A stretch of DNA of 64,000 nucleotides from Xiphydria camelus (Eukaryota > Arthropoda > Insecta > Hymenoptera > Xiphydriidae), in NCBI GenBank assembly GCA_963678675.1, contig OY783201.1:1498001-1562000 (forward strand), read 5' to 3'. Every line of letters starts with the position of its first letter. Position 1 is the first letter of the stretch. Position numbers and translations under genes: made by a program. Positions 1,492 to 59,675 of the stretch are shown here, one piece after another. Below the pieces are notes generated by a model. It worked only from the letters and a program-made list of their open reading frames with translations. It had not been told where the DNA came from and searched no databases.

Positions 1492-1499
1492 TATAAAAG
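1492..1499 (+). promoter_or_regulatory. TATA box of WK1
   Basis: TATAAAAG lies 90 bp before the ATG at 1582. The expected transcription start about 30 bp downstream (near 1523-1530, around GCCAGAGCAGTG) would give a 5' UTR of 50-60 nt. A TATA box fits a strongly, stage-specifically transcribed structural-protein gene; that expression pattern is inferred. Confidence 0.7.
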
Positions 1500-1581: not shown

Positions 1582-4465
1582 ATGAGGTCTACCCTGGTTA
1601 GTGTGCCACGAGCCGAGCTAACGGTTTTAGTCCAGTGACACGTGAAAGTGCTGGTGTGCGCGGTCGGCGGATAGATGCGCGAGGAGCGAGTGAAGATTAC
1701 CGAATGATCGCGTGATGATAGAACAAAAAAAGGAATTCAAAAAGAATTCCATCGGAATATCGATCGAAGGATGGATGAAACTCGTCTCGTCTCGACACTC
1801 CGGCGCGATATCATTTTCTTTCACCGCGTGGGATGTGACAGCGCGAGTCGTGTGCCCGCGATCGGATACGCGCGTACGATTTTGATTCGTTCGTCTATCA
1901 ACGGACGACGAGAGAACACGATGTCTCTCCCGCGGGAATAAATCATTGACGGTTCTCGATGTGTCGTTCTCGGAATTCGACTGGAACGGAATTCCGATCG
2001 GTATCGCCGATCGCGCAGCGAGATTACGGGTAAACCTTAGCACGCGATCGTTGATATGGGATCGACCACCGTCTTCCCCTCGACGCGTTGCCGCTCTTCC
2101 AGTCGGCGATAATCCGTGCCTCCGAGATGTCACTCGTGATGTACCGAGTGATTTATGTAAATTACAAACGCGGCGCCGTGCACGAATGGCTTATTCGGAA
2201 CGAGCCGTGGCGGGCAATGATGTACCCGCGGCGCTTACCGTTGCCGGGAATAAACGAATGATAATTTATTCATCGCCTTTGGTCCTTGATCTTGACTCCA
2301 TGCGCGTCGCGCAATTGTAACGCCCGTAATGTTACCGCTAAAATAACATTATGGGACGAGAATGATTTATATCCACGCTTGGAAGAGAAGCGACGGATAA
2401 AAAGCTCTCTCGGCGGCTGTCGCGATGTATTCCCACTCGTTGGACACGTGTCTCTATTGGATACAATCGGCTTATCGGCGCCCGGTGCGTGTTTCCGATT
2501 GGTACGCGAAAAAAGAAATCAACATTGATCGATGGGGCGCTATTTGAAGGATAATTCTCGTAGACGCATATCCATACCTTATCCGGCGCGGAAGTCGAGA
2601 CTCTCGGAACGACGAGATCGAGGGCTGCGCGACCCGTTTACGGGCCGTCGCGGTAGTTCTTGTCTTTCGCGCGACTTTCATTCCCCGGTCCTCTCGCGTT
2701 CCCGCGCTTTCGAAGGCGCGAGCATCTATCGCGCACACGAGCTCGTGTCCCCGGCGTGAATGGAATTCGAAACGCGTATAGGAAGAGAAATGACGCGGGG
2801 TCGAGGTTCAAATTAGTATACTCTGCTCGGTGGAAGCGACTCGGCAAATATGGCACATATGCATATATCGTCGCTAATAGATTTTAGGCAACGACGCGCG
2901 AGTTATTGAAAAACGACGTAGGAAAGTTGCCTTTCCTTTTCTAACGACGCGCCGGCTCTCTTCGCGCAAAAAATCGCTCGCTCGAATGACGTGAGGTGGC
3001 GCAGCCCACGCGCTTTCGGACGGATATGTTAACGAGATTGAATTTCAGGTGTTGCTGGGGTGCTTGTTCATCGCCTCCGTCCTCGGAGAACCCATCAGAG
3101 CCAAGAAAGAGTGAGTTTCATACTTGTCAATCCGGTCTGGCACATCCTGGTAGCAAAGAATCGAACGCGATTCGATAACTTTCATCGATCCGCAGAGCGC
3201 CCAGTCCGGATTACGGAGCACCATCGACCCACCTTGGTCCTCCGGCGACTTCCTACGGCGTCCCCGACGCGGGACTAACCGATACCTACGGTGCACCACC
3301 GGCCGACAGTTACGGTCCCCCGTCGTCCAGCTACGGAGCGCCGGCGGCAGAACCGGCGTCGAGCTACGGTCCACCGGCTACCGGCTACGGAGCACCGGCG
3401 TCCGATCACGGATCCTTCGGGGGTGGCTCCTTCGGAGGAGGAATAGACGAGCACCACGGGGCCGATTTCGGGGGAAACCTCGGCGGGGGTTTCTCAGGAG
3501 GTCACGGTGGTGATTTCTCGGGAGGTCTCGGGGGTGGCTTCTCCGGAGGCCACGGCGATGGCTTCTCCGGAGGTCACGGGGGCGGTTTCGGGGGAGACCT
3601 GGGAGGCGGATTCGGAGGAGGACTGGGACCTGTCTACGGGGCACCGGCGGTGTCCTACGGCGCTCCCGCGCACGACGCTCCCCACGGCGTCTGGAAGAAG
3701 AAGCTGACCTGGAAGGCCGAGCTGAAGCAGATCTGGAAGACCGAGCAGAAGCTCACCTGGAAGCAGGAGTGGAAGAAGATCCAAGTACCGGTCTGGAAGG
3801 AGGTTCAAGTGCCGATTTGGAAGGAGGAGAAAGTGCCCGCTTGGAAGAAGGTGCAGAAGCCGGTGTGGAAGGAGATCCAGGTGCCGATTTGGAAAGAGGT
3901 TCAAGTGCCGGCGTGGAAGAAGGTCTGGAAGCCGGTCTGGCGGGCGATCGAGGTGCCCATTTGGAAGGAGATCCAAGTGCCGGATTGGAAGAAGTCGTAC
4001 GTGCCGGAATGGGTCAAGGTAGGCATTCCCGGCGAGCAATACGTCGGCAAGGATCAGCACGGCTGGCAGTACACGAGCCACGACCTGTGGAAGAAGAAGC
4101 TCATCTGGAAGCCGGTGTGGAAGAAGGTCTGGAGGACGGAGAAGAAGCAGGCCTGGGTGACCGAGAAGAAGCTGGAGTGGAAGGAGGAGTGGAAGCAAGT
4201 GTGGAAGACTGAGAAGAAGCAAGCGTGGGTCACCGATAAGAAGCTGGTGTGGAAGGAGGAGTCGGTGCAGGTGTGGATACCGCATAAGAAGCAGGTTTGG
4301 GTCACCGAGAAGAAGCAGGCTTGGAAGGACGAGTGGAAGAGCCGGTGGGTACCGGTTTGGAAAGACGTCCAGGTACCGGCGTGGAAGAAGGTTTGGAAGC
4401 CTGTATGGGAGAAAGTTTGGGTTGCCGAGGAGCACCATCACGACGATCACGGTTACAAGTACTGA
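1582..4465 (+). CDS. WK1: secreted Trp/Lys-repeat protein with resilin-like N-terminal half (3 exons, 448 aa)
   Basis: Exons are 1582-1596, 3049-3110 and 3196-4465; the introns are GT-AG with phases 0 and 2 and the frame closes at TGA. The start is the first ATG after the TATA box and gives a hydrophobic signal peptide, probably cleaved near Gly18. Residues about 27-97 repeat S-Y-G-A-P / S-Y-G-P-P, as in resilin-like elastomers. Residues about 97-175 are GGF/GGH-rich. From Trp192 to about 434 the protein is a Trp/Lys repeat built of WKK-[IVL], WKPVW and WKEIQVPAW units, with 37 Trp by my count, nearly all 4 or 8 apart. A non-repeat linker (298-328, with GIPGE and HGWQYTSHDLW) splits the repeat into two blocks. 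The tail is His-rich. No catalytic motif is visible. It is paralogous to the gene at 14410. I do not recognise a named family; a structural cuticle or matrix role is inferred from secretion, YGAP repeats and cross-linkable Lys/His/Tyr. Gene model confidence is high, function low. Confidence 0.88.
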
Positions 4466-4948
4466 TGTCTCTCGTCGATCGATCGACCGACCGACCGGGT
4501 TTTTACTCCGTGGAGCGTGACCAGTATCGAATGCGCGTCAAATTTCCGCAGACGCGAGCCTCGACGCGGAGAACTCGAGAGCATCTTTTCCCTTGTACAC
4601 GTAGTCCGGAAGAGCCTCGCGAAGAATCGAAGGACTCTTTCTGTCGCTTCGGAGAAGTCTTGCCGAACGATATCTATCGAGATTTCGTCACGTGTTCCAA
4701 ACGTAATTGCGAGTCCAATTATACATAAGAATTATACATTCGTCAACGACGCTCCACCGACGTCGGATTAGAAAGAATTGTCGGAAGAAAGGAACCCGGA
4801 AAGAAGAGTCGCCTGCGGAAGTGGAAGCGACGCCATGAACGATATTGCGAGTGTCAACGGTACCCTTGGTATTTCTATCGCATGTGAATTTGTAAATAAC
4901 GATAGTACTCTATGTTATATTTTTGTACGTTACTCTCTACTTTTGTAC

Positions 4949-4954
4949 AATAAA
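4949..4954 (+). terminator. Polyadenylation signal of WK1
   Basis: AATAAA lies 484 nt after the WK1 stop, followed by a T/G-rich stretch (GGTGTTTTCTGCC). It is the first canonical hexamer downstream, so the 3' UTR is about 0.5 kb. Confidence 0.6.
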
Positions 4955-6356
4955 AACGTTTTATACCACGGTGTTTTCTGCCTTCCTTTTCACTAATTCT
5001 ATTATAAGATCGTTTCAACATGACCGAATAATTATCACCGCATGATCCATATAAAAAGAAAATCTCGCTGCACTCGCGTCAGTTTATATCGCGACGCCTT
5101 CATGTTACGGAGCCACCGAAATTCTACGTCTACCGACTCAACATTTTCCGGAGCCATTTCGGCTGCGAGATTTATCGACGAAAAAGAGATTTACCGCCGG
5201 CGCCCGTAAATCTTTCGTGTAAATATTGAGAGTCTAATTATAAGAAAAGCAGAATTCGCTAGCCGCGTGAAAAATAATAAAATCGAATGAACTTCGAACG
5301 ATCCCGAACAAATCCTCGCATGTGTGGCGAGAGCGCGCGGAAGAATACCCGGGTAAAAGGTTACTTCCGCGCGGCGCTTTTACTTCCTCGTCGTCGAAAC
5401 GAAGTGTTACATACCCGCACGCGGGATGACGGGAGGTGACTCACTAATTACTTCTCTCGAGTTAAACGCTTCAACTCCGCACGCGCCGCATCGCAATCGG
5501 ACGAGCGTCTCCGGTGATTTACGCAGAAGCAGCGGCGAGTTTCTAACGGGACAGCGCCGCGACGATACTTTCTAGGGATAAGATACGAGATTCACAAGTT
5601 GAATTCTCCCAGGGCTGATAGAACGGGTCACGAGACGAACCCGCGGCGACCCCGACTTTCTCCCCGCATTCGCACTTTGACTTTCCTACACGCTGCGCAG
5701 TCTCGCGTGCTCGCGCCGTCGCGTCTTCCCTTTCGTGCGTGCTCGGTCACGGGGCAGCCGGAAGAAGAGATACGGAACCGCAGTGGGGGACGTCTCCGTA
5801 CAATACGAGTGTCGGCGTAACACCGCGAACGAGTCGCGGAGTCTTCCCGGACGGCTTTTTACGCGCCATTTCCAGCGATTTCGAGCCGACCGAGAAACAA
5901 CGACTGCTGCGGGAATGCGCGATTCATAGCTGCGTAATTACCGCGCCGCCAGCCATTCCCACGAGAGTAAAAGCAGCGCCGCGCGCGTCCCTTCAGCCGC
6001 GCGAAGAGCGCGCAATTACGCGTGCCGGGCGTCGAATCGCTGCCGTTTTCTCGCGACCGATCTCACGTGGTACATTCTTTTCCCCGATCCTCCGTTTTAA
6101 CCCGTCCCGTTCTCGAGGGAAAGCCTCTCATGCCTGCGGCGCGCGAGCGCCGGATCTTTATCGACTTCTCCTTATTCGCCCGATGCAAATGTCCCGCTCG
6201 TGGGAAAGGGACAAACATATTTCTCGACGGCTTTCGAACACCCACGACTCGACGGAAACTTTTTAATTCCTCGGCGACCGCTTCGGGGCGAATTCCATTA
6301 GCATATAATGCCGTGCGAAATGGGCGCGCGTCGAAAAAGCTCAGATTTACGACCTT

Positions 6357-6570
6357 GCGCGAAAGTGAAATCGTCGTCTTCCGCGTCGCCGGAGATGATT
6401 TTGTCGCGAGTACGAAAAATAAGAGCAGCGCGTCGATCCCTTTCCTGTACATACCTACGTTGCGCAACGATGTTGCACGATGGACTCGAAGAGAGCTACG
6501 TACGTTTATCGCGCGAAAGTGAAATCGTCACTTCCGCTGTGCAGGGCGGAGCCGGAGACGATTTCGAACC
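6357..6570 (+). repeat. Imperfect direct duplication, 154-bp offset
   Basis: GCGCGAAAGTGAAATCGTC occurs at 6357 and again at 6511. Both copies are followed by related sequence (CTTCCGC, then GGAG and GATTT blocks). It is a decayed tandem duplication with no gene attached. Confidence 0.55.
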
Positions 6571-8242
6571 GCCGCGGAAACCAGAGCAGCGTCGGAATAT
6601 CGCTTCGATTATTTTCTTACACCGCGTTCGAATGCTGGATCGTAAATCGGGGATCGAGATCGGCGAGAAAACGACGTCGCGTGCCGCCCCAGGCGTGTTT
6701 TGCGCGGACATCTACGTGCACGTGCTGCGCAGCGGTATCATATTATTCGCACTAGGCCATGATCATTCCCGGTAAAGAGCAAGGAGGAATGCACGTTGGA
6801 TTTCTCTCCGCGCGACTGCCGCGGAGAAATAACGATGGCACTGAACTTCGGTCGCGTTTTAAAAGAAATCCTCCCTACCAGAAGGAATGATCCGATTGGT
6901 TCGGCATCGCCACCACTTCTTCAACATTTCTTCGAACGCTCTCCTCCTCTCCACTGCGTATATCCACTACGTGTACTGTTACTTTTACTACTACTATTAT
7001 ATACTGGCCTCTTGCGACGCGTCAGCGTCCACCATTTGGCTGCGAACCGACGCACGAGCAGGTTCTCGTCCTACACACTCGAAAGTCAACAAAGAATTCC
7101 GGATATTTTCGATGTGCCGTTTCCTTTATGCACAGCTTTCTTCGCCGTCTAAATAATGGACGGCGGAGTAGATATAAATTGGCGTAACCTTTGAACGAGT
7201 AAAAATCGCATCCGTATCTACGACGATCGGAATGCAAAATCCTCTCGTTTTCTATTCCGCGTCGAGAGTGTTCTTTTTTTTCTTCTGGAAATCGATTTTC
7301 TAATATAACAATGATATCTGAGTAACCACGTTTTAAAATCTTCGTTATTTCGATATCTACGAAACTTTCGCCGACCCCGAAGACGAGCGCCGAGTCGATA
7401 AGTGCGAGGATCAATAATGAGTCGTTCGGAGGAGCCTCTACACGAGCGTGCACCGGCACACGTGCGCACTCGCGCGGTGATGCCGGCTGAAAGAAAATCG
7501 AAGCATCGAAAGTTGATCATGCTTTATGTATGGCGCGCGTCGAGTAGCGACGACTTATACGATCACGCGTATTACCCAATAGAAAGCGAGACGTGCATAC
7601 GCGCCACTTATATGCCTGCAATCGGCAATCGTCTCTAGAAATATCTGAGAGCTTCGCGGTTCGGCGAGACGGAGGAAGCGCGCGTACCGGTTATACGCGA
7701 TCTCGAGGACGGAGGATTTCTAGGAAAGTCCGGGAGCTCTCGCGGAGAAAAGGCATCGCTTTTTCTAAAGTCCGCGAGGTCTGGCGGAGTCCTCACGGGC
7801 GACGAAAGAAATTTACCGCCGCCTGTCGGACGATTCGAAGAAAAGGGCAAGATTGTTCGCACCGATTTCACAGTGCTTCCGGAGGAATGCGCCCTATTCC
7901 GCGCATATGTAAACACATCCTGATATTTATTATTCTTTCGACCCACTACCAAGATGCAGTCGCTCCCCGATTTACATCCTGGTATGAATATATTTAGAAA
8001 TCCGGTTATTTTGGGCGCCGTGCGAATAGTTTCACAGTTTACGTCATTTTCGGTAAAATGTTGATGTAGGTCCACCGCCGGTTTCGTCGGATGGCATCTT
8101 GCTGTACATGTGTATATGTATGTATGCACGGTCGGAGGCCTCTCACTCGTGTCACCTGACTTTGCTACTTTTTTCTTTTCGAATCTGTTACGGATTCTGT
8201 GTGTGTATGCGAGTATGTATGTGTATACGAGTATGCATTTTT

Positions 8243-8720
8243 TCGTGCTGATTCCGAAAATGCCGGATTTATTGGGGAAATCTCAAAAGAAATTTGAAAT
8301 ATCGGTTATTTGTCGTGAAAAAATAATTTTTCTACACATAAGATCATTAATACCCCTTACGAGTATATTTACTTCCTTTGAGATATCGACCAAATAATCG
8401 TGCTTTTCGTAATCAGCATGAAAAAATACATAAGATAGGCTGGTCAAAAGTTCCATTCTAGAGATTTCGATTTTTGACAAAATGACAAAATGTCTTGACA
8501 TTTTTTCATATTTTTCGCAAAAATCGCAATCTCCGGAATAGATTTCTCGACCATCCTATCTTATGTATTTTTTTCATGCTGATTCCGTAAATAATAGATC
8601 AATTGATGAAATCTCAAAGGAGACCTGAGATACCGTCGATTTTATGAGGGGAAACAATTTTTCTTCGTCATAGAGTCGTTCATATATTAAGTTTTCTTTG
8701 ACATGTTCATCTTTTAATCA
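8243..8720. repeat. Foldback repeat family C, copy 1
   Basis: The core 8414-8581 is a long inverted repeat: CAGCATGAAAAAATACATAA at 8414 mirrors TTATGTATTTTTTTCATGCTG ending at 8581, with further matching sequence inside. Outside the core are three related arms carrying GCTGATTCC...GAAATCTCAAA, two in direct and one in inverted orientation. A related copy lies at 27957-28215. This organisation is typical of a foldback transposon or MITE; no coding capacity is seen. Confidence 0.7.
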
Positions 8721-11700
8721 GTGTATCGCCTGCTATTGCTTTGGCATCACACAGAACGATACGGCGACGGATATATATCGGGTCATATCTACTGGCCGCT
8801 GAATAGTTCCGATTGCCAGCATCGATACGAATCCGAATGAATCACGTCGAGTGGTGAGATTTGAGCTTCTCGATTATCGACGATAATCTTGACATGGTGA
8901 CTTTCATCCGGTGCGACGTTAATTGTCGCGCGAGAGCCGTTAATTAGCGATGCCTCGTAACAGCGAATATTCCTCGTTCTGCCGAGGCATTGCCGATTGC
9001 AGGCCTCGCGCGCTGCGAAACGCCATCGACGACCGTGACTCGCACGTCCGACCGCACGGGCTTCGCTTGCCCGTGGATCTTCCGCGCCCGCGCGCTTCGC
9101 CGTACATCGAGCAACACTCGTGTGCGCGGGTCGTGCGTGTTCCCGTACACGCGTATCGCGGGTTATGCAGAACGCGACTGGCCAGGAGGAACTATCACGA
9201 GTTGCGGGCTGAACCGAGCGCGGCCACTTTCACGTAACTATGTATGGAGAAGCATAAATATATACGAGAGCTCTTGCGTCCTTTTCTACCAGTTCAACTC
9301 GTCCAGCTTGGTCAATACGTGCTTTGAGAAAAAATTCACGGCGGCCGCCGTCGCGAGAAATAATGGCATCGTTCTCGACAGGCTGTGCTATCCGCGGAAT
9401 TGTAATCTCGGCTGAATATTTGCTCGCCTGATTTAGCGGTTTCGAAAAAAGGGGTGCAAGAGTGCTCCAGAGATATTTTTTGTTTATCTTCGCGCGAGGT
9501 CTAACGAAATTCGAAAATACGATTTCCCAACTTCTCCGGTTTTTTTTCAGAATTCCTCGATCGCTGAAAGCTGCTGCGTCGTCGCGTTAAAATTCTCCGG
9601 AAGTCGTCAGCCAGTCAGAGATCGTCCGTCACACGCGTCCATCACGCGTCAGTGGATTTTCCCCCGTTGAGACGAGGCTTACCTCAGGCTGCTCAACAGT
9701 CTCGTAAATCCAACGAGATATACTCACCGTTCCGCGGTATTTCACGGTCACGTGCTCCGTAACTTTCCCGTACGGGAGATCGCGGAACATGCGATCATAA
9801 CAGTCGGTTGAACTGCTTGACCCGAATGTTGTGTACAGAACTATTTCTCTTTTTGGTATATGCGATTGACACTGTGGAGATGAGGGGAGTAGGGGAGTGT
9901 CCAGCACGCAGTCGTATGTATAGCCACCGCTAGACCCTGGCAAAGGTCAAAAGCCACGGCAGAACGGGCGAGGAGAGAGAAAGGGATTTCCATCTTTCGT
10001 CGAAGCGCACAAGAATCCATCTCGAAACTATTTCCCTCTTTCCTCCCATTTGTTCTCTTTCGCGGTAGAGCACCGGCTTTCCGCTGCGACGAATATGAAT
10101 GTGCAACGGCTCGTACACCGTATAACGACAGCGACTTTGCTCGGTCACGGTTCAAGCGGCTCTTCGTGTTCAGCCGAGGCGCGCGACGCGAGATCTCCAG
10201 GCATTGGTGCGCCTTGGGTGGACCAACGGAGCGAATCCGCGACGTCCCATCCTTGCTGACGCACGCGACTCTCGCGATTAGAAATGGAGAGTGCCGGGTG
10301 GCACTGTCAAGGCTGGCGAAAATTCCCCTGGAAGAGAATCTCGTCTCCGCGCGTCGTGTTTGCTTCAAACTCCTTTTACGTCGTGCCGGTTTGCCCGCGC
10401 TTGCCCTAAATCGGAGATAATTCGCACAGAGAGCGGTATCTCCGCGGTTTCGTACAGACGCCGCAGCGTCGCGAAAAGGTCGCGATTTCCCTTTCCGACT
10501 AAAAGCGAATCGAAGTCAAAATCAGCGAGTTTCCTCGAATCCAAAGGTCGTCGGATCTGTGGTCCCTCTATTGAAATATTTCGACACAGACATTCCTCGT
10601 TTCCAATGCCTTTCCGGCGCAATTCTTCGTCACCTCTCGACGAAAACCTCGAGTTACTTTCTCACCGCGCGCGCCTGAGACTTCTCCGAATACCGAAGAG
10701 AGTATTATCAGGTTTCCCCTAAACGGCATATTTCCGCGGTATTGACATTAGACCGAACGCGACTGGTAACAAAATAAGGTTTCGGCGTAACACAATGACG
10801 AGTCCTCGTCGCGGCTCTTACATCAATTGCCCACTTATCACTTTCACTGAACTCCATTTACCCGACCGGATGAGCCGCGTTCGCCGGTGTCGCTGCGTCG
10901 GAGGCACGTGTGCGCCTGGCGACCAACCGCGTCGTTTCGACCGGCCCGCGTACGTGTAAGTATGCGCGCGCCTACGCGGGGCACGGATTTGTCGTAACCA
11001 GCGAAAACACGATTAGCACTTTAATTGCGCGAAGAAGCCCTCCCCCTCCCGATTGGGTAACATTTGCTTTGGATGGAAAGGCATAGCGCGCGGCCCGCGC
11101 GTCGTGCATCGGGGAGAGTGGTCAGGGCCGAAATCGAAGCAGGAGGGACAGCCGCTTGCAGTTGCTCGACGCGGAAGCGCCTTTCACTGCAGCACGCCCG
11201 CCCCGATAACGCGTAAACAAATAGACCACGTCCTCCGCTCGTGGTCCGTTCGTTTCGAGCCGGAGACATCGCGGGGAATTCGTCGTCGCTCGACGTCTGT
11301 ATAATTTGTATAACGGGCCTCTCTCATTGACTGAACGGTGGAGTTTTTTTCTATTCTCACTCCATTGAATCAGCGCGCGCGCGCGGTTCCCGTCAAGCGC
11401 GGAAAGGAGAACAAACGTTTCGCCTCGTCGCGGTCGGATGTAGAGAGGTCCAGATTCGATCCAGGAGAGTTGGAGAGGTATCGCCGAGAGGGTTTTGGAT
11501 TTGAAGAGAAATGGAATTTATATCGAGAAACACTCCCGCGGGGAAATGTACTCGCACGCGGTCGAGTTCCAGTGACAATGTTGTCCTCCGCGTGGCTCTC
11601 GACGTTCCCGCTGATAAATCTCGTCCTGGTTCTTCGACCTCTCTCTCTCCCGCCTCGTAATTATCACTCCAGTTTCGAGCAGGTACATCACGCGCGTTAG

Positions 11701-12043
11701 ATGAGAACACGAGACGAATAATTTATGCGGCGAAACTGATAAATCGCCGCTGGTGTTGAAGCCGGATTATACGCGCTCGCATAGAGATCGGAATGATTAA
11801 AAGTGCGAACGATCGCGCGCGGGTCGGTAGGTGTAGCGATGGCCCCAGGTGGTGAATTTCGAGAGGCCCTGGGCCGGGAAACGCTCCGTTGTAATTGGGC
11901 CGTAGAGATAGAAATTGGACGTAATTCGGGAACATTGAATACCACCGTGACCACCGCGTTGTCGCGCGAGAAACTCGCTCGCCGACGAGATGACGTTTAG
12001 TGCGCGCAGGTGTCGAGAGGTTGACACTTTGAATGGGCGCGGG

Positions 12044-12074
<31 letters not shown>
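12044..12074 (+). repeat. (GAC)n microsatellite
   Basis: About ten uninterrupted GAC/ACG units lie in non-coding DNA between the WK genes. Confidence 0.9.
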
Positions 12075-14305
12075 TTGACACGGTGTTACAGAATCTTTGA
12101 AGGACGCAAAAGAATTAGAAAGTGTTTTCGCCTAAATGTCGCGCGTACGTCGGGTGCGGAAAGAATTTCTATGGCGAATGTGTCAGTAACCCGTTGCTTC
12201 CTGAAATTACGGTAGCGGTTCTTTCTCTGGTCGGTATGATTCGGTTTTAGCGTTGTCTTTTTTTTTTTATTACAGATTCGAAGAATTTGGACAAAATTAT
12301 AAACCCCGTTTTTTTTTCATGTTTCATTTTCCATCTTATCCAAGGTTGAAAAATATACTTTGAATTGCAGCTAAGTCATAGTCTAGTACTATCTCCTTCG
12401 CATTCATTGCTTGGCGTAGCGTCCTCATCCACTTACATCTCAGTTGATCCGCTGACCTTCATCCACTTATAGGTAACTCAACGAATAATTATTTTTTCGA
12501 GTCGTTTCTCTTTCGTTTTTCATTGAATACGTATACGGATTACAAATGAGATTTAAAAATATGAATATTTGTTTACGTTAAGACCGAATTGCATCGCGGC
12601 ATCCGAGCGGTGCAGGTTCCACGTACCGCGCGCACGCGGGACGTGTAATTGCGCCACACCGAACGCGGCGCGCGACCGGGAAGTCGCACGAGAGTTCTGC
12701 CATCGGGGAAATTGATTTATGGCCGGTCAGCGCCCGGCGGCGGGCCGACGCGGTGAAATCGTTTCTGTATCTGGATTCTGGAAAGCGACGCGCGGCCGAA
12801 TGTCAAGATTCGAAAATCTGGAGCAGCTGTGTAACCTTGTCGCGTACGGCCGTTGCCCGCGTTTCATAAACCGGAATAGAGGAAGGCGGCGGCGGCGGCG
12901 ACGCGCAAGAGTTTCGTTTTCTACGATGGAACCGGCGTTTCTCCGGAATTGAGAGTCGCGGCGGAAGCCTTATTCCCCGAGAACTCGTTAGATAACACGA
13001 TCATCCTTCGCGCTATACTAATTTCCACCGGCGGAATTTAGACGCAAGCCGCGCATGCACGGGAGCGCGCGGTAATTGCTCAAATTGCGAGATGTAAACG
13101 GTCGATGATTTGCGATAAGTGTACCCGTCAATGCGAATAAATAGATTCCACTTCATCTACCGGCGAGCCGGCAATACCCGGCGAATGAAATCGTACTGCT
13201 CTTCCTCGCGGAACGAACTCGTACGCGATGGCTATCGCGAAAAAGAAACGAGTGCGCAGCGTGTACGTAACACAGTTTACGCGTCGACGGATATACAGGA
13301 CGATTTATATGATCAAAGTTGTCATCGGTCGAAACGTACGATGATGACATTGCTCGGAGACGAGGACTTTCGCGCATGGAAGTATAAAAATACCTCTCGA
13401 TTACGAATCGCGCCGGATACCACATCCACGCCATTCGTCACCCAGTTACGGACGCGTCACTTATCACGTCGCTCAAAACACCATCGCGATGAAAATCCCT
13501 CCCCGCGCGTCGCGAATCCACCGTGACGAATGGCGTGTTGTCCGCGACTCGTACGTCTTCTCGTCTCCCGGCTTCTCTCACCTTTCGCGACCTTGAGCGC
13601 GCGCGCGCGCGGCAGGAGGGCGGCTCTCCTTTTCGCGCGTTCCGATCCTCCCGCGTGTCCGCCCGCCACGCGACTCATCTACTTTGTTTCTCGCGCGACG
13701 CGCTTTCCTCGTGACCAGGTAAAACGGCATCCCGTCCTTCGAGGTTTCGGGACCAGGCTTCTTCTCCGAGCCGCGGTTTATTCGGGCGGACAACCCTGCG
13801 AATCGGGGTTGAGCCGTTCCCGCGGGGTAAACCGTTAGCCGGACCAGGACTGCTCCTGCGCGCGGGGTCGAGGTAAAAAAAACTCGCTGGCTCGCTCGAG
13901 TAACCTTGCCATACGTAACCTTGCGCCTGAACTTCGCGGGTGTCGGGCGGCGTCGACGCGGACGAGAGAGACGCGTGGACGACGGCGATCGCCGCGGTCC
14001 ACCTAGCTCGCCCGGCCCCGCTTCTCGATCACTTTCTCCGCGAGCGACGGCCCCACCGGGAGCGAGATAAACAACGCGAGAGGAGAGGAAGGTTCACGTA
14101 AGCCTTTCCTGCAGCGGCGTATCCCGGAGCCGCGCGCGAACGCGGGAAGAGCCCGCGCCGCACGCCGCGCCCGCCGCGTACCACGGCTTCCACCACCTTC
14201 CGCTTCCCACTTCCAAGCGACCGCTCCGCCACTTCGCCGCCGCGGTTCTCCACCACCTGCCGCGCGCCGTTCGTCCTTCCCGGGCCACGGGGGAGGATAC
14301 GCGCC

Positions 14306-14312
14306 TATATAA
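14306..14312 (+). promoter_or_regulatory. TATA box of WK2
   Basis: TATATAA lies 104 bp before the WK2 ATG (14410), about the same spacing as in WK1 (90 bp). The implied start site is near 14336. The similar promoter layout supports a tandem duplication that included the promoter. Confidence 0.65.
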
Positions 14313-14409
14313 CTACGACGTTCCGCTGATTGGACGAAGTAAGCCAAGTTTACCTGCGCCCAGGGAACAAGAAAACGCGCCCGAGCCCAGCGGGCGGCAC
14401 AAGGACAGT

Positions 14410-17199
14410 ATGAGGATTCGCCCGAGATGCGCGGTCAGTTGACAAGCGTGAGATACATATCGGTCGCGAGGAGGTCGAACGTTTGAGTCGCGGCGAGGCG
14501 AGGAAGGACGGACGCGAATCGGTGGACAAATTTTTTGGTGAAATTCGCTCGCGGTTTCGGGACTCTTCCTTTGTACACTTGGAACGAGTAACCGGGTGAT
14601 CGCGAGAGGTACTCTCGGTGGGTCGGTGCAGCGGAGTTGACGTTCTTCGCGTGAGAGAATCTGCGCGCGGAAGGACGTGCTTGTGGTTCCGGGAGCCGTA
14701 CGAGGGTGGCCGGTGGTCGAGTAAGGGAAGCGAAATTAATTTCTCTCCGGCACTGTTCCCATTTTCGCACCTACGAATCGCCGGAGGTCGTTCACATTTC
14801 TCTTAAAGTCTCGCACGACCGATCGACGAGTTTCGCATTAATTCGGGCAAGCGCGGGCTCGTTAATTGTTTCATTAAAAAACGACTATTAATATTATTAT
14901 AAACGTCAATAATATTATTTTCGCCGCGAAGAATTTTTGCACATCGATCAATTTTTTTAATACCTCACAAATTGTTTCCTTCTCGCGGGCTCAGATCTGC
15001 AAAATCGAGCATGGATTGAGTAGCGATTAAATTGCACAACGCGTCATGGCGCACGTAATAAATTCAAAATTAGACGATTGCAAAATGAAAAGAAATATTT
15101 TTGACGTAGAAAAATGGGAAAAACCCGAAATTCGTCACACGAGTCCCCGATGCACCTCGAAACGTCTTCCTCGGATAAATCGAAAGCAATCGCGTCTTTC
15201 TAATTTGCCTGCGAGAAGAGAGGAAGAGAGAGAGAGAGAGGGACGAGACGGGGAGAAAGAAGATAGAAAGCCGACTATTTTTATTTGTGTTTCTATACCG
15301 CGCGATTCTTCGGCGCCGCGCAACTGGACCCACCGGAGGCTATCGTGATTCACGGAGCAGTGAAAGAAAGGCGTTTTGAATAAGTCGCCCGCTTTGTACA
15401 CGTAGAAGAGCGATCGATTACCACGCCGATCGGACGATCGAACGGTGCTCTTTGTATCGCGTCGCCTCGAAAGGAGGACTCGAAAGAGAGCGTGAAAGCG
15501 GGCCGCGTTTCACGGCGCGACGCGCGTTCGTTAGTGCAATTAATTAATCCGCGCGCGCGCGCCCGTTAATTTCGCAGGTCGCATTGGTTGTGCTACTGCA
15601 AGCCGTTCTTGTGGCGAGCAAGGCATTGGATCGAACGCAGCTACAGCAGCAATCGCAGCAACAAACCCCGTAAGCATTTCATCTTCTTTTAGCGGTCACA
15701 TTCTACTTTGATTCAAACGTGTGGTTGGACCGGTGGACGAAAGAAAAAATGAAATAAATAAATAAACGGGCGATCGTTATTATCGCACGAATCAATCGCG
15801 GTGTACGATCGGATCGGGAGAAAGCAAAATAAATGTTAACGATGTATTCCGTCATTTTTTTTCCTCATCCTCAATTCGTTGCAGATATGGCACTGAGGTG
15901 GCACAAAAACGATGGGGTGGTGACGAAGGCTACGGACTCGATTTAGCTGATCACCACGATGACCATCACGAGGAGCACCACGATCACCACGATCACCACG
16001 ACCACCACGATCCGGGATACTGGAAGAAGAAGCTGATCTGGAAGCCGGGTTGGAAGAAGATCTGGAACCCCGCCAAGAAGCAGATCTGGAAGCCGGCGTG
16101 GAAGAAGATCTGGAAACCGATCTGGGAACCGACCAAGAAGGCCGTGTGGAAGGAGATCCAGGTGCCGGCCTGGAAGAAGATCTGGAAACCCGTGTGGAAG
16201 GAGATTCAGGTACCGGTATGGAAGGAGATTCAAGTGCCGGCGTGGAAGAAGGTCTGGAAGCCCGTCTGGAAGCCGATCCAGGTCCCGGCCTGGAAAGAGA
16301 TCCAGGTGCCGGCTTGGAAGAAGATCTGGAAGCCGGTCTGGAAGGAGATTCAGGTGCCCGCCTGGAAGGAGATTCAAGTGCCGGCCTGGAAGAAGGTCTG
16401 GATACCCGAGTGGGTCAAGGTCGGCATCCCCGGCGAGCACTACCACGGCACCGACCACCACGGCTGGCAGTACACCAGCCACGACCTCTGGAAGAAGAAG
16501 CTCGTGTGGAAGCCGCTGTGGAAGAAGTACTGGAAGCCCGCGAAGAAGCAGATCTGGATACCGGATAAGAAGCTCGAGTGGAAGGAGGCGTGGAAGCAGG
16601 TGTGGAAGCCGGCCAAGAAGCAGATCTGGGTGGACGACAAGAAGCTGGTGTGGAAGGAGGAGTGGAAGCAGATCTGGCGGCCGGACAAGAAGCTCACCTG
16701 GATCCCCGACAAGAAGCTCGAGTGGAAGGAGGCCTGGAAGCAGGTGTGGCGGCCGGACAAGAAGCTCGAGTGGATCCCGGACAAGAAGCTCGCGTGGAAG
16801 GAGGCGTGGAAGCAAATCTGGGTGCCGGATTGGAAGGAGATCTGGGTGCCCGGTTGGAAGAAGATCTGGAAGCCCGTGTGGATATCCGAGTGGTTCCCGA
16901 GCGAGGACCATCACGATCACCACCACCATCACGGCGGATGGGAGGATCGCAAGGACGAGCAAGCGCGAAGCGCTCAAGTAGTACCGTACAGTCCGCAATC
17001 GGTGGACGCGCGAAATTCCGGGGGGGAGCAGCAGCAGCAGCAACAGCAATTGACCGATAACAATAAGGTCAACTGGGAGAGATCCTTCCAGGCCAAACAG
17101 CAGCGAGAATCCCCGAGCCAGGATCTCGTACCGCCGTCGGCGGTGGCACCGAACGCCGCTCAGACGAGCGGGAGCAATTTGAAATTTCCCAGTCGCTAA
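14410..17199 (+). CDS. WK2: secreted Trp/Lys/His-rich repeat protein (3 exons, 476 aa)
   Basis: Exons are 14410-14433, 15578-15669 and 15885-17199, with intron phases 0 and 2 exactly as in WK1. Exons 1-2 encode an Arg-rich n-region and a long hydrophobic core ending near ASKA, a clear signal peptide, then a Gln-rich stretch. Residues about 60-83 are His/Asp/Glu-rich. Residues 85-375 form the Trp/Lys repeat: 51 Trp by my count, W-x3-W or W-x7-W almost throughout. The N-terminal block uses WKEIQVPAW and WKPVW; the C-terminal block uses WIPDKKLEWKEAWKQ. The two are separated by the same GIPGE...HGWQYTSHDLW linker as WK1 (215-245). After residue 376 come a His cluster, a polar tail and a 7-Gln run. 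The YGAP and Gly-rich parts of WK1 are absent. No enzyme motif is seen. A structural extracellular role, perhaps metal- or quinone-linked through His and Lys, is inference. I do not recognise a named family. Confidence 0.9.
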
Positions 17200-21400: not shown

Positions 21401-24035
21401 ATGTGGCGTACGGTTCTCTGGCTCTGCCTCCTCGCGCTCTGCGTTTTCTGCATCTGCAGCTGCATCAAGCCGTCCAACTTTCCGCCAGGTGGGCATGCGC
21501 GCGTGCTTTACGATCGCTCGAGCGTGTCGCATACGCGTAAATGTAAAAAACGACTGGCCGTAGTGAAAAGAATCATCCGGGTTGTTGCATAAAAATTAAA
21601 AAAAAAATGCGCCTGTGTAAAGAAAATTAAAAGAAAATCGTATATCTTGGCGACGCGCACCGTTTCTCGCGGCAGGTCCTCATTGGTATCCCCTGCTGGG
21701 ATGTGTCCCAATTTTCCAACGATTGCGAACGAAACACGGCTATATGCACCTGGCCTGCCAGGAGCTGGCGGATAAGTACGGTCCGGTTCTGGGTCTGAAA
21801 TTCGGCAAGCAACGATTGGTGGTGGTGTCCAGTTACGATCTCGCGAAGGAAGTTCTCCTTCAGGACGAATTCAACGGTCGCCCGGACGGGTTTTTCTTCC
21901 GAGTACGCGCCTTCGGCAAGAGGAAGGGTGAGTACAGTCGCCGCGTATCCCTGGCTCTGCTTCTCTTATTTCGTCGGTCCGTCGCGCCACGACTTTCCCC
22001 GCGGGCCCCGCGAAACCTGTTGTTTGATTCGTTTCAGGCGTCCTGTTCTCCGAAGGCTCCCATTGGTATCAGCACCGACGCTTCTCGATGCGTCACCTGA
22101 GAATTTTTGGATTCGGACAGGCCGCGATGGAGAATTACCTCACGGTGGAGGCTCGGAGTCTCGTCGAGCACCTTCGCAAGCTGAGCGAATCGGGCCCGGT
22201 ACCGATGCACACCGCCTTCGACGTATCGGTCATCAACGCCCTGTGGGTCATGTTCGCGGGGCACCGATTCGAGTACGACGATCGGAAGACGAAGGAGGTG
22301 CTGAAAGTGTCTCACGATGCCTTCAGGTGGGTTGGGCGATTCGTCTCGCGCGTCCGATTCTCGCTTTCTACTGGATTCGCGATGACTCGCGCAAAAAATC
22401 GCGACGGAAAAAAATAAGTCGTAGCACTTACAAAGTTCGTGGTAAATTTCGGGGTAAGGCCAATTGCAATTATTATTGCGATGACTGCGATTTTAATAAA
22501 AATTACAGTAAAACTTGTAAAAGTTGCAAGCGTTTCTGTAATTTTTACTAAAATTGTATTGGACATCGTAACAATTCATTGGCTTTAAACCCCGAAAATT
22601 ACCACAGACTTTGTAAGTGCTACGATCAATTTTTTTTTTCCGTGTAGGTTTCCTTCCGGGTCGAGAGCGCCGCGGATGACGAACGCTCGTTCCGTGGTCC
22701 GCGAGACCTCCATCGATGTCGCCGATTGGAGGCAATGAACGTCGTATTTATGCACTCTCGCCCGCCAGGTTGATGGACACTCTAGGAGGAGTCTTGTCCC
22801 AAATGCCGTTTCTCCGGTTCGTGACCCCGGAGCTGTCGGGCTATAACGAGCTGATGTCGATACTCGAGAAATTGTGGGCCTTCCTGGACGAGGAAATCGA
22901 GGCGCACGAGCTCGCGCTTTCGAGCGACCAGCCGCGAGATTTGATCGACGCTTTCTTGATCGAAATTGGTAAAAATGGCTCGTCCGACTCGATATTCAAT
23001 CGTGAGTATGGTCCGTTGCGCATCCGTTCTCATTACACGCGATAATTCGTCGGAGATACTTTAACGGCGAGACGCTTTTCGAGGGAAGGCGAAGATCTGA
23101 TAATATTGTGCCTGGACCTGTTTCTGGCGGGCTCCGAGACGACGAGCAACACCCTGGTCAACACGATCATGTACCTGACGCTGTATCCGGAATGGCTGAC
23201 GACGCTTCAACGGGATTTGGAAGCTGTGGTGGGCAGAGATCGTCCGCCGACGATTGCCGACAGGCAGTCATTACCGACGATAGACGCTTTCTTGGCCGAG
23301 GTAATTGAGAAAATCATATACCTACACGCGCGGCGTGGACGTGCCCCGCGTGGAAGCGATTGTATGTAAAGTTTCACATTTTGATTCGTACGATCACCGT
23401 CCCCCTTCGATCCGCAGGTACTGAGATACTTGGTGTTGGCTCCCCTCGGCGTTCCTCACAGGACGACGAAGGACACGACATTGGGCGGCTACAGTATTCC
23501 CAAGGTAAAATCGCGAGCGCGAACGAAAAACCGTTTCTTCCTCGTGGCTCCGATTGATTACCTCGCACATTTGCCGCAGGATACGATCGTTCTCATAAAT
23601 CTCCAGAGCATCCACAGCAGCGAAGCTTATTGGGACAAGCCGAAGGAATTTCGGCCCGAGCGATTTTTGAACGCGGAAGGCCAGTTCTGTCAGAGCGACC
23701 ACGCCATACCTTTTGGCATGGGTAACGCGCTCCCCCCTGTTATTTTTCACTCATGCGATCCGCACCTTATTGAAACGCAATTACCTCGCCGCGATATGAA
23801 TAGCATTGACCCGCGGTTGAAAAAATACATTTTCTTTTCAGGCAAACGTCGCTGCCTCGGAGAGTCGCTGGCCCGCGCCTCGTTGTTCCTCTTCTTCGCG
23901 TACCTCATTCACTACTTTGATTTTGAGATTTCACCGGAACACGGCGCCCCGAATCCCCACGGCTACGACGGTTTCACCGTCTCGCCGAAGCCCTTCCATC
24001 TCAAGCTCTCACCGAGAGCGGACGTGAAAGACTGA
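21401..24035 (+). CDS. Cytochrome P450, CYP2 clan (CYP15/CYP305-like), 8 exons, 498 aa
   Basis: Exons: 21401-21488, 21676-21927, 22038-22326, 22769-23001, 23089-23300, 23418-23504, 23580-23721, 23842-24035; all phases agree. It is a haem-thiolate monooxygenase with an N-terminal membrane anchor (residues about 5-22), so microsomal. Visible motifs are the FPPGP hinge, a C-helix region with HWYQHRRFSMRHLR, the I-helix AGSETT (301-306), ExxR (E358-R361), FRPERF, and the haem loop FGMGKRRCLG (432-441, Cys439). All key residues are intact and length is normal. The acceptor at 23089 is weak but is the only one keeping frame. By overall look it resembles insect CYP15A1 (methyl farnesoate epoxidase of juvenile hormone synthesis) or CYP305; the family call is tentative. 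It converges on the P450 at 24375, and a MITE fills most of intron 3. Confidence 0.93.
22404..22643. mobile_element. MITE family B, copy 1, in P450 intron 3
   Basis: The ends are ACGGAAAAAA...TTTTTTCCGT, and subterminal CGTAGCACTTACAAAGT is repeated in inverse at the right end, followed by GTGGTAAatTTCGGGGT on both arms. Inside is a second palindrome around AAAATTACAGTAAAACTTG. It is about 240 bp with no coding capacity. A related core is nested in the element at 25085-25488. Confidence 0.8.
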
Positions 24036-31381: not shown

Positions 31382-34300
31382 TTACAATAGATCTAAATCG
31401 ACTTCTTTCCTCGGCTTTTTCCGAGGTACCTTTCGCCCTTTCAAGCCATCCAATTTTCGTTTCTTGGCTTCCTTTTTTCTTTGTTGCCTCGCGATTTTCC
31501 GTTTCGCAGCTACTTCCGGATCTGTCACGAGCTGCGGGGTGTACACATACAAATGATTAATATTCTTATTTTCTTCTACACGTTGTCAGCATCTCAAGAC
31601 GAACACGTCGCCCATTTAATCGATGTACCTGTTGCGAGCGGATCTTCTTCCTCTCAGCCCTTCTAGTATCGAGTCTTAATTGCACGGAATTAAGTAATCT
31701 CGCATACTTCTCAGTGTCCAAGCGTTTCTTTATCATGGTAGTTATCTCCTTCGCCATCCGACGCAATGGCAAATTCGACTCTTCAGTCGTGGCCATTTCG
31801 CGTACGAGTGGGGACATTATGTGAAACAATATCGGTTCCAAATATTCTATGGAAATTGTAGCTACTATACCAGCGAACCATTTGAACACCGCGGTTCGCT
31901 GTGATAGAGAACAAATTATACCCAGTTAAAGTTTAATGTCAGTCAAGAAGGATTAATGTTAGTTGATATGATATAAAATTTACCATAGACGTGGACTTTG
32001 GATTTTGCGTGACTTCGATATTAATAACTTTTCTCATTCTCTTCGCAAACCAGGGAAGAGATATCTCATCTTTATACTTGTCGTTACTTTCTGCCTCGTC
32101 TTTTATGCCCTCTTTATCAAATTTCGCAAATTTCACAACCTTCGCGATGAATACGAGATTTTTTACCACTTGATCGGCTAATTCCTCAAAGCACATGTTA
32201 GGCTGCAGTTGCGCTATTAAATCCAAGGTAAGACTTTTGATAGTGCCGACTGTATCGGAATATATGTAACCTCTTTCCGGAAAATAACTATCTGGAGTTT
32301 TCAGAAGTTCAGCCACCTCGTCAACATTTAGAGCGGCCAACACGAAGCCTATGAATTGCGACGCTGCTAGACGCACCCACAAGTGAGGATGGGCTAATAA
32401 CGCCTGACTGCATTCTGTAAAAAATAAAGCGATACTAAAATAATGTCAAGGATATTTTCTACCAGGCGATGATCCTATTATAAATTCACGGCCACTCACC
32501 GGCAAATAATCGCACGTCATTTTCGTACTTCTTATCGTTCAAAAATACTGTGCAATTGGCCGATATCTTCAGTAGTAATTGTAAAACTTGGAACAAATGA
32601 TGATCTTTCATTCTCTCCAAACTCTCGCTCTTTGAATTTGTCGTAAAAGGGTCCTCCTTCTCTTTGCGCAGCTTGACGAAACGGCCGGGCTCAGATTCTT
32701 TCGAATTTTCAATTTGAAATTGTTTCAAAATTAATGGTAGTACTTCCGCGAGACGAGATCTGAATGCTTCCTTTTCAACGGTAACGAATATACCACAGAG
32801 CTGTGCCGCTAATCTTCGATGAGATATCTGCACCAGACGGTTTTTCAGTATAAAAAGTAATGCTCGACAGTTTTTAATTTTACGTGCGATACATTTTACA
32901 GCTGGTTAATAATCGCTCACCTTGCTGTCTTTCATCCACAAAAGAACGATTTCGAAAAGCTTAGTCTTTTGATTGTGCACTACTCGTATAACCATTTCTT
33001 TGATACATTTGGCGCAAAGTTTACGACATGTCGGATCGTCGTCATTGACTAGCCTAGCTCCTACCATGAGGAATATAAGTCCAGATTGTTTAGAGAGAAC
33101 CTCCTAAATTAAACAGAGCAATATATCGTTGAAAAAGCGTAAAAGCATGGATTACACATTGTGATACAGGAAGACTATTTTGGTTCATTTCAATTCTCAA
33201 GCTGCCCATATCTAATGCCCAACTCACTTTAGGAAACCCTGTGACGATACTGTAGATCATCTCCAATGCGCTCAATCGTCCAGGTTGCATTTCGTAACTC
33301 AATTGCGTCAAGTAGAATAATACATGTTTCTCCAAGAGTTTGCCGAGTGGATATTCCATGAGAAACATATAAAAGACAGACCGCGACTGTTGTCTCACAT
33401 GTTCTAGGTCCGAGGAGATGCTCAACATGGCAACCTTCTCCATGACCGCATGCATTTCCGATACGATCATTTTGCGACTGATGATCGCCTTGAGCAAGCC
33501 GAACGCCGTAGCCTGTTTGTCGGAATCGTGCAAGTCCTGCTCCGCGTACAAAATCAAAATTTTCAATTGTTCAGTGCTAATGGTGAAGTCTTTTAGATCA
33601 CGCACGAGCACGGACATGCACTTAAACGCGGCCATCACGAGATCAAAATTGTCTCCCTTGCTGAGCCCGGCAGCCGCGTATTTGTGGAGAATTGCAAACA
33701 TCGATGCGCATATTTCAGTTATTAGAATCTTTACAGAGGATAAATCCATTTTTAGAATCCAGTTCATACACTGCAGAGCTAAGGTGCTCAACTGAAAGGC
33801 AAAAAAAAGGTCGTTATTCCGGTAAATATTTCCATTTCTTAAAAGCGATCGGTAGAGAGCCAATGTTTTGAATTTCATTCGCACTCTAAACTAGAATAAG
33901 GTATTATACCTTGACATGTTGGGATTTTAAACAATCTCTCAGTACAGACACAACAGGTTCCAAGTAAAGCTTAAATTCCGGACCGGATATTCGATCTCGT
34001 TTAAGCAAAACATGATACAATCGCAAACCAAATTCCACCATAACATGAGCGTTAGTATTGGCCGTTATTCTTGCCATGGTTTTTATACCCATCCGATTTT
34101 TTGGTTCTGCTGGTATTACGAAGCAGTCGGGCTTCTGACGTGCGATTGCTTCGGCCTCTTTTTCTGTGATTTTTTTCTTATCTTTCGTGGGCATCAATCC
34201 GGGTATGCTTTCCGATACGACGCCGTAGAGAAAGATGAGCAATTGATTTGTGGGGATGAAAGTATTGTCGGCTAAACCCAAGACGATTTGTCTCAAGCAT

Positions 34301-57536: not shown

Positions 57537-59675
57537 TTAGTTACTGTAAATTCTCAGTTTTTTCGCCGAGAGAGTCGCCAGATATAAGTTATTCTCAATT
57601 TGATAGGAACATAAATCCACTATAGGATCGGATATCGACAGACTGTGTATTCGATTTCCCGTTGATACACTCCACAATGGCACAGTTTGCGTAGATTCTT
57701 GATACGCGGCTATATAAGTGTCGTCTTCAACGTGTACGTGACACGGTCGAGACAATCGTTGTTGGGAATTTCCACCGTTAAAGACGTGAATGACGTTACA
57801 AGTGACAGCGTCTTCTTCTGCCTTTTCAACAGTGCACACCACATGCCTTGCATTTGGTTGCCTGGAGTTAGGACGCGAGGATATTAAGATATGTTTATTC
57901 TTCTCGTCGCAACGCACCGACACGAAAGGGCCCTCCAAAGGCAATTGCTTTCCAACGTATTCCGCGTTGTTCGGCACGTACGCGTAGCACGAATTTAGAC
58001 GACATGCTATGAAACCGCCTCTGCTGATTCCACCGCCGGGATTCGGGGGGATCGACGTGAGCGAAACAACCGGTGATCGGTCACTAGGATTTTCCAGAAT
58101 TCCAATCGCTCCAGAGGTTTGTCTTTTATCGAACAGAAATATCGATCCGTTTTGTGCACCGGCAAGGAAATTGTTTGAATTTTCTCCCGACCAACAGCAG
58201 CTCCAAAGCTGAGATTCCGTGGTGTACGTGTGCACGGCTATGTTCAAGCGTATATCTACCATTTTTATATTCTTATCAAAACTAACGCTCGAAAGTAACG
58301 TGTTTTCTACGGGATGAAACGACAAATCCCTTATTGCTTGGGTGTGGAGAAAAATAAGTTGTTCCCTCTCGAAATAATCCATATTTATTTTACGCACGCT
58401 GTAACCGGCGAAGAGAGAATTCGTCGATTTTTGCGATACGACTAGAGTTCTGTGCCACGGATTAAAAGCTAACACGCGACAGGTACCGTCTTTGCAAATG
58501 TCTAGGGACTTTTCGAGACTAAACTTCGCCTCCGCGTCTTGGGATACGCTTTGATTTATTCTGACGGTCATTACAGAGTGCTGGTTCTCTAGCTGTACGA
58601 CGCGATTCCTCAGGCCTGTCAATTGGTCATTGAGTAACCTTTCTCTGAGCTTGCAATGTGTATGCTCCGATTCGAGACGAGTTTTTTGGGCAGTTACGTT
58701 CAAGAGTTGTTGCTTTAGAGCCTCTATTTCGGTAGTGTCTATTGCGGACAATTTTTTGGCATAGATTACTCTGATGTCTCTAATCTTGGTCTTTTGATTA
58801 CATTGAGGACAACGTCGATTCCCTGCTTTGCATCCTACCTGCAGCCATTGCAGAATGCAGCTGTGTCCGAAGAGGTGTCCACAGGGCAAGGAACATAGAC
58901 GATGTTCACCAGCATTGCTCCATAGATCCAAGCAGATTGGACAGTTCTGACCAGTTTCTTCATCCTCAGGCTGACTCTTCTTCATGTCACCTGTTGTTAT
59001 TAATAATAATTAAAAAATCAAAGATCGCGATAAGGAAATTGAGGTCTCTTTGACTATGAAAAAGTGATTTTTTTGAGTCTTGCATAAAGAAAACTTACCA
59101 TCATTTACACCTTCGGCTTTGGAAGTCTGGCTGCTGACTTTTTCTTCCACCACTATTATGTCATCCCCGTCATCTTGATCGCTCTCGTTAGGTTCGTTTA
59201 GGGCTTCAACTGCTTCCTCCTCATTTTCTTCAATATCTGCCGCTTCTTCATCACCTTAAATAAATAAAAAATAGCTTGAAATATGTGGTGATATGACCTT
59301 TCGATAAGGATCATATTCCTAGGCACAGAGCTATAGAAATATGATCCTCATTGAATAAAGTTTACTCTGCTTTTTACATCCCGCCTTTATAGCACCAATA
59401 ATTATACCATATTAAATTATTTCGTTAAAGCTCCAAATTATTTTAAGGCGGTGAATTTTTCATTGAAACTCATTCCAGAGGATTTAAAGGTATTGCTCTT
59501 AAAATATTATTACGTCTATAGAGGTATATATAAACACATATCAATTTGACAGGAGATAATTTTTCAGTGAGGTGACTATGACAAATAAAAATATATATGA
59601 CAGTTAATTCATTATCATCTACACATAGAATTATGAAATTCGTGACAGCTACTTACTGTATTCCATAACCTCCAT
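57537..59675 (-). CDS. RFWD3: E3 ubiquitin ligase RFWD3 (RING finger + WD40), 3 exons, 542 aa
   Basis: Exons in order: 59675-59657, 59254-59099, 58990-57537; the introns are phase 1. RFWD3 is a nuclear E3 that ubiquitinates RPA and RAD51 at stalled forks and in interstrand-crosslink repair. Residues 7-45 are strongly acidic. A C3HC4 RING begins at Cys75 (CPIC, then CGHLFGHSCILQW, then RRCPQC). A coiled coil follows (about 125-165, Gln/Leu/Glu-rich). The rest is a WD40 propeller, with GNRIHSLSISDPIVDLCSYQ and NLYLATLSAKKLRIY near the end as in vertebrate RFWD3. Vertebrate RFWD3 is about 774 aa; this one is shorter because the disordered N-terminal region is reduced. It is head-to-head with mRpS30. 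Confidence 0.94.

Follow-up and report, generated by a model that had tools for sequence, protein, structure and literature searches.

The Pfam model DUF4816 describes a 43-residue unit and assigns no function to it; the arms of equal length and the linker between them, reported below, lie outside the model. Among described insect proteins, the mosquito CPLCW cuticular proteins are, like WK1 and WK2 of the present study, of low complexity with tryptophan as a characteristic residue, a comparison made by description from the accessible part of the source (PMC12426002). According to an extract of another report, CPLCW proteins had not previously been annotated in Hymenoptera (PMC7497268). The CPLCP/Vajk proteins, also compared by description, are low-complexity insect proteins as well, and Vajk-4 is said, in the part of the source that was available, to be an orthologue of CPLCP3 and to take part in cuticle barrier formation (PMC8667434). 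Vajk was considered as a lead to the identity of WK1 and WK2 and was rejected, since the literature pointed to CPLCP and not to DUF4816. Designed Trp-zipper peptides have roughly 12 residues. Extracts of two papers describe cross-strand Trp in the beta hairpin of designed trpzips (PMC10593748) and a Glu-Lys salt bridge in trpzip1 (PMC9049704); the former also reports a circular dichroism band near 228 nm for such peptides.

The 64,000-nucleotide stretch of Xiphydria camelus DNA that was analysed (the window) encodes WK1 and WK2, which, as sequences, are ordinary members of a catalogued family. Pfam PF16086 (DUF4816) matched the open frame of WK1 (3179-4462) in 8 stretches (E 6.9e-57, 189.6 bits) and that of WK2 (15766-17196) in 10 stretches (E 1.9e-75, 248.9 bits), and both passed the gathering cut-off of 29.4 bits. 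An earlier sequence-only reading of the window had known of no named family for the pair, which has to be corrected. It had also held that a match to a characterised family of known function would speak against an undescribed system; the family found is catalogued, with neither a function nor a paper for DUF4816/PF16086 in the 5.39 million open-licence papers that were searched. The literature on Trp-rich cuticle proteins and on His-rich, zinc-bearing mandible proteins yielded nothing on the DUF4816 family, and the sequence of the repeats led to a single paper, on antimicrobial peptides. In a Pfam search of the exon-3 frames of WK1 and WK2 at E up to 10, the Rebers-Riddiford (CPR) chitin-binding domain was not found, and the other matches (Mucin-like, ZrgA and Cornifin) were all below cut-off.

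Database searches, two of which scored about 8,000 candidates each, yielded at least 23 further proteins (13 + 1 + 9). Two of these (P0022 and P0023) lack the DUF4816 domain and look like low-complexity matches; the gathering score was passed by all ten homologues that were scanned. Among the matches listed, all 12 named species carrying DUF4816 are insects, and the carriers comprise flies, a beetle, a plant bug, a stick insect, three thrips, two Odonata and a mayfly. The named matches included no hymenopterans, in a collection that apparently holds few eukaryotes. The public gene models P0001, P0012 and P0014 join DUF4816 to a DUF5641 stretch, a Forkhead domain and TPX2 domains, which are probably annotation errors.

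The two genes lie on the plus strand, with the start codon of WK1 at 1582 and the stop codon of WK2 ending at 17199, as had been claimed earlier; the description as a tandem pair of secreted proteins was also upheld, both genes being spliced with a signal peptide readable in each. A TATAAAA box (1492..1498, +; consensus match only) is found 90 bp before the start codon of WK1. Coding exon 1 of WK1 (1582..1596) encodes MRSTL, the first part of the signal peptide, and is joined in frame (donor CTG/GTTAGT) to exon 2 (3049..3110; AG acceptor, GTGAGT donor), which encodes the remainder of the signal peptide (VLLGCLFIASVLGEPIRAKKE). The spliced product has 448 residues, and its N-terminus, MRSTL followed by VLLGCLFIASVLG, reads as a signal peptide that is split by an intron after five codons. 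Exon 3 (3196..4465), with the DUF4816 match, encodes an N region rich in YGAP/YGPP and Gly, arm A (3692..4012; 106 residues from the first W to the homologous end residue), a linker of 25 residues (4013..4087; VKVGIPGEQYVGKDQHGWQYTSHDL) that resembles the linkers of WK2-type homologues, arm B (4088..4408; 106 residues), a short His-rich tail and the stop codon.

The putative promoter of WK2 has a TATATAA box (14306..14312, +; consensus match only), and two overlapping candidates for coding exon 1 (14410..14447) lie ∼100 bp downstream of it: 14410-14433 (MRIRPRCA, donor GTCAGT) or 14427-14447 (MRGQLTS, donor GTGAGA). Exon 2 (15578..15669; beginning VALVVLLQAVLVASKA) encodes the hydrophobic core of what, in the spliced sequence with a candidate exon 1, also reads as a signal peptide. 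Exon 3 (15885..17199) carries the DUF4816 match and encodes a His/Asp-rich region, arm A (16021..16413; 130 residues), a 25-residue linker (16414..16488; VKVGIPGEHYHGTDHHGWQYTSHDL), arm B (16489..16881; 130 residues), a His-rich region and a Gln-rich tail that ends with LKFPSR before the stop codon. In several WK2-type proteins, a basic site of the AQKR/AQQR/QSR type (window 15886-15945) precedes the His-rich region and might be a processing site. Several also carry, at their C terminus or close to it, the motif (W/F/L)xFP (LKFPSR, FKFPGA, WQFPSS and WTFPEA; window 17100-17199, P0001, P0003, P0007 and P0008), and a comparable xFP motif is repeated several times near the N terminus of the mayfly protein P0010. 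Elsewhere, the window contains a cytochrome P450 fragment (23385-24032, +; Pfam E 3.1e-31), UTP20 (31942-40264, -), RFWD3 (57540-59009, -) and mitochondrial ribosomal S30 (60736-62370, +), a content that fits the nuclear DNA of an animal.

The repeat domains contain 37 Trp in 246 residues (WK1) and 51 Trp in 291 residues (WK2), and 33 of the 36 and 47 of the 50 Trp-to-Trp gaps, respectively, are exactly 4 or 8 residues long (92-94%), in agreement with the counts and spacing of the sequence-only reading. The fraction of gaps that are multiples of 4 was 0.92 in WK1 and 0.94 in WK2. In 20,000 composition-preserving shuffles per domain, this fraction averaged 0.19 for WK1 and 0.18 for WK2 and never exceeded 0.47 and 0.42, respectively; no shuffle came up to the observed share. 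The extraordinary Trp density and the regular indole/lysine lattice reported earlier were confirmed. Lys makes up 22-24% of the two domains. The earlier account of Lys-Lys or Lys-Pro between the Trp residues was a simplification of more varied units, namely WKE(I/V)QVPx and WKKIWKPV in arm A and WKPAKKQI, WVPDKKLE, WKEA and WKQV in arm B. As multiples of 4 also account for 72-94% of the Trp gaps across 21 homologues scored, the lattice is not a frame artefact. It is carried in the window by the two open frames given above, and the densest other frame (at least 60 residues and at least 6 Trp) has 6 Trp in 72 residues. Cys is absent from the exon-3 products of both genes.

The alignment showed a common order: a signal peptide (in complete models), then a region of variable sequence rich in His/Asp or in Gly/Tyr/Pro, followed by arm A, the linker, arm B and a tail. 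The linker (consensus-like VKVGIPGEKYLGKDxxGWEYTSHDL) is kept in most aligned members and has 25 residues, with 18 in Frankliniella and 15 in Thrips palmi. Arms A and B both start with W(K)KK(L/V)xW and share a related motif at their ends, and each arm was taken to begin at its first Trp and to finish at the homologous counterpart of the Trp in PVW, so that the ends were set by sequence pattern and not by length. Fifteen of 25 sequences (2 from the window and 23 fetched) were used for the count; P0004-P0007, P0011, P0016, P0017 and P0021 (incomplete or one-armed) and P0022 and P0023 (no domain) were set aside. In 14 of the 15 complete proteins, some of which are closely related (Ischnura with Ladona; the members of the thrips group) and which hence represent fewer than 15 independent cases, arm A and arm B had exactly the same length. 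Five lengths occurred: 130 residues in WK2, Musca, Nesidiocoris, Timema and Asbolus (arm B of the last two derived by hand from end positions); 106 in WK1, Frankliniella and P0015 (arm ends placed by hand, arm B beginning with S instead of W); 107 in Thrips palmi and P0019; 58 in Ischnura, Ladona and Neocloeon; and 56 in Drosophila busckii, the model of which is labelled partial. The sole exception was Megalurothrips (99/107), whose arm A lacks 8 residues that Thrips palmi has. Among the sequences set aside, arm A of P0004 and arm B of P0006 and P0016 have 130 residues, and P0011 gives a length of 172 in what is seemingly an unspliced reading. In isoform X2 of Drosophila biarmipes (P0007), arm A is joined to arm B at the common WKPAKKQIW, omitting the hairpin tip and the linker; this may be a false intron or a genuine isoform without a tip. 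Counted by hand, arm B of D. biarmipes would have 80 residues, provided that the junction in X2 lies at the expected repeat. The equal-length, two-arm architecture, absent from the sequence-only reading, suggests that the lattice zips a hairpin; neither the equal-arm rule nor the hairpin reading was found under the DUF4816 name in the open-licence literature.

The pairing of charges between the two arms was analyzed in antiparallel and parallel registers. In the antiparallel register L+2, in which a+b equals arm length + 2, there were 140 opposite and 7 like-charged pairs in 11 proteins (a count that omits the near copies P0009 and P0019, P0013 with its unequal arms, and P0015). In 10 of the 13 proteins that were tested individually, L+2 outranked all other tested registers; it came third (tied) in Frankliniella and fifth in Musca and Neocloeon, and it placed facing W-W pairs in WK2 (14), WK1 (6) and Ischnura (8). 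Shuffles of arm B in four-residue blocks reached the observed score 43 (WK1) and 20 (WK2) times in 5,000, 3-7 times for Nesidiocoris, Timema, Asbolus and D. busckii, and 15-71 times for P0019, T. palmi and Musca; the score was not significant for Neocloeon (2,045), Ischnura (281), Ladona (306) and Frankliniella (456). Block-shuffled arms already score well, with a mean of 11.3 for WK1 against 17 observed. High scores were also obtained for the control pairings, pooled over 10 proteins (also without P0018), of B with B (154:18 at L-7) and A with A (64:5 at L+10), and A with B reached 104:14 at L-7, the register preferred by Musca; charge alone is therefore not proof. Charge covariation among five orthologues, analyzed over 22 registers, gave permutation fractions of 0.017 for L-3, 0.042 for L+2 and 0.050 for L+4. 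Parallel pairing was disfavoured, with 13 opposite against 232 like charges for the in-line register and 122:31 for the best other parallel one. Antiparallel pairing of arms A and B is likely.

For the Ischnura member (17 sequences), AlphaFold predicted two unbroken strands of 66 residues, 78-143 and 163-228, the end positions of which add up to 306 on both sides and are thus mirrored. Block pLDDT was 89-96 inside the strands and 71-87 at the strand ends, in a model with a mean pLDDT of 68.5 and a pTM of 0.31 overall. The arms of this protein are predicted to form an intramolecular antiparallel hairpin, where the strand pairing, here as in WK2, was deduced from strand ends and not from coordinates. 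The WK2 model (22 sequences) is all beta, with a mean pLDDT of 63.8 and a pTM of 0.27; at this low mean confidence, the outer and tip-side strands, 26-63/281-318 and 137-161/183-207, are mirrored with a sum of 344, while the middle strands mirror imperfectly and much of mid arm B is below pLDDT 50. In both models the register is L+4 (a+b equals arm length + 4), which differs from the charge register by two residues. L+4 yields 72 opposite against 157 like charges in the 11 proteins, Lys faces Lys in 19 pairs of WK2, and W-W pairs number only 2 in Ischnura and do not rank with the most frequent pairs in WK1 and WK2. A search of solved structures gave no convincing match. The arms are rich in Pro, which is unusual within strands and counts against a ribbon. 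An alpha-helix, as the 4-residue spacing might be read, was rejected, since Pro occurs throughout the arms and neither model has a helix there; the helices of the Ischnura model are outside the arms only.

We read WK1 and WK2 as secreted structural proteins, most likely cuticular, in which the DUF4816 region forms a long two-stranded antiparallel beta ribbon, and assign a probability of roughly 0.6 to this reading. The hairpin is predicted by AlphaFold; the cuticular setting, the indole ladder, the salt bridges and the anchoring we infer. Arm A would run out, the linker would turn and arm B would return alongside, residue by residue. Trp at each fourth position would lie on one strand face as a ladder of indoles, and Lys would form cross-strand salt bridges with Glu/Asp on the partner arm, so that indole stacking and salt bridges would stiffen a ribbon with a Lys-rich surface. 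At 0.34 nm per residue, its length would be ∼44 nm for arms of 130 residues, 36 nm for 106 and 20 nm for 58. The His/Asp-rich (WK2) or YGAP/Gly-rich (WK1) flanks may join the ribbon to the matrix, with His- or Tyr-rich ends available for matrix crosslinking. Structural self-assembly, which had been put forward from the letters of the window, agrees with this reading and is a likely role.

The arms may instead pair between molecules and build antiparallel many-chain sheets, such as amyloid-like or domain-swapped fibrils, in which equal arms would provide regular packing. The charge and Trp pattern would work equally well there, arm B is strongly self-complementary, and a Trp-zipper peptide with Gln and Val substitutions forms nanofibres and gels according to an extract of PMC10593748; the conserved linker that joins the arms in most aligned members and the confident intramolecular hairpin predicted for Ischnura, though from single-chain prediction, speak against it, and we consider pairing between chains unlikely.

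As to the tissue, the occurrence of the family from a mayfly to flies and the YGAP/YGPP repeats of WK1 and Nesidiocoris point to the cuticle, as judged from sequence. Cuticle protein genes commonly have a short first coding exon that interrupts the signal peptide, and YGAP repeats are reminiscent of these genes. Both features, as found here, count against structural proteins of another kind (eggshell, silk, tracheal or gut-lining, or eye-lens proteins), as does the presence of homologues in insects whose eggs and silks differ greatly; secretion and low complexity would suit any of these tissues, which nonetheless appear improbable as the setting.

The history of the arm lengths bears on the ribbon itself. 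Arms A and B of one protein share 40-59% identity (ten proteins; 41-53% in the 130 class), whereas the same arm shares 68-86% between species of the 130 class and, when orders are compared within the 130 and 106 classes, 58-86%. The two arms of a protein have thus diverged more than the same arm has between orders, and their equal length is not the result of recent copying: the arms separated earlier than these insect orders did, and they have remained equal ever since. A midpoint-rooted tree, in which the thrips and P0015 have some long branches, grouped the proteins with arms of 130, 58 and 56 residues in a single clade (100/99) that excludes WK1, the thrips and P0015. The lengths require four changes or more, of 72 (58 versus 130), 74 (130 to 56), 24 or 48 (106 class) and 1 residue (107), and the arms are equal after each. 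Under the ribbon reading, a change in one arm would be matched in the other because the arms must stay paired. The arms contain 24-residue (72-bp) repeats, and slippage of such units could explain changes of 24 or 72 residues; the shifts of 1 and 2 residues are not explicable in this way. In D. busckii, one Trp gap per arm is 2 residues shorter (A 34-40, B 22-28), and these intervals overlap when mirrored and do not coincide in parallel numbering, which fits the antiparallel prediction and disfavours parallel pairing. The thrips have gained one residue in each arm (A 14-27, B 30-47) at places that are not mirrored, and under antiparallel pairing these gains would need two compensating bulges. 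Low-complexity, largely disordered arms, equal only through duplication of one arm and shared repeat-unit mutations, would gain or lose 24 or 72 residues easily, given the common arm starts and ends and the 24-residue repeats, but they are quite improbable, since later changes occurred in both arms after their far deeper divergence, the shifts of 2 and 1 residues are not repeat units and AlphaFold is confident for the short-arm Ischnura member.

A bolder version of the ribbon reading, which we put forward tentatively and at somewhat less than even odds, is that the DUF4816 family represents giant tryptophan zippers made by nature: antiparallel beta ribbons of one chain, up to ∼44 nm long, which matched arms and complementary charges would have held in register since the origin of the winged insects and which would act as rigid, fixed-length struts of the cuticle, with arm length as a heritable ruler that admits only paired indels. 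A catalogued but unexplained insect family thereby gains a concrete, testable shape, and the rule of equal arms is simple enough to be checked in any insect genome. If true, a design like the Trp zipper would exist in nature, at no less than ten times the designed length, as a rigid extracellular ribbon, which would be relevant to cuticle biology and to biomaterial design.

Of the systems compared, the CPLCW proteins differ by description, since the accessible part of the source presents them as restricted to mosquitoes and as having a conserved domain with invariant Trp (PMC12426002). The arms of the DUF4816 proteins differ from the designed trpzips in being natural, in having 56-130 residues per arm with Trp at each 4 residues, and in a Trp-Trp pairing that is putative; the likeness between the two would be a resemblance in working, not kinship.
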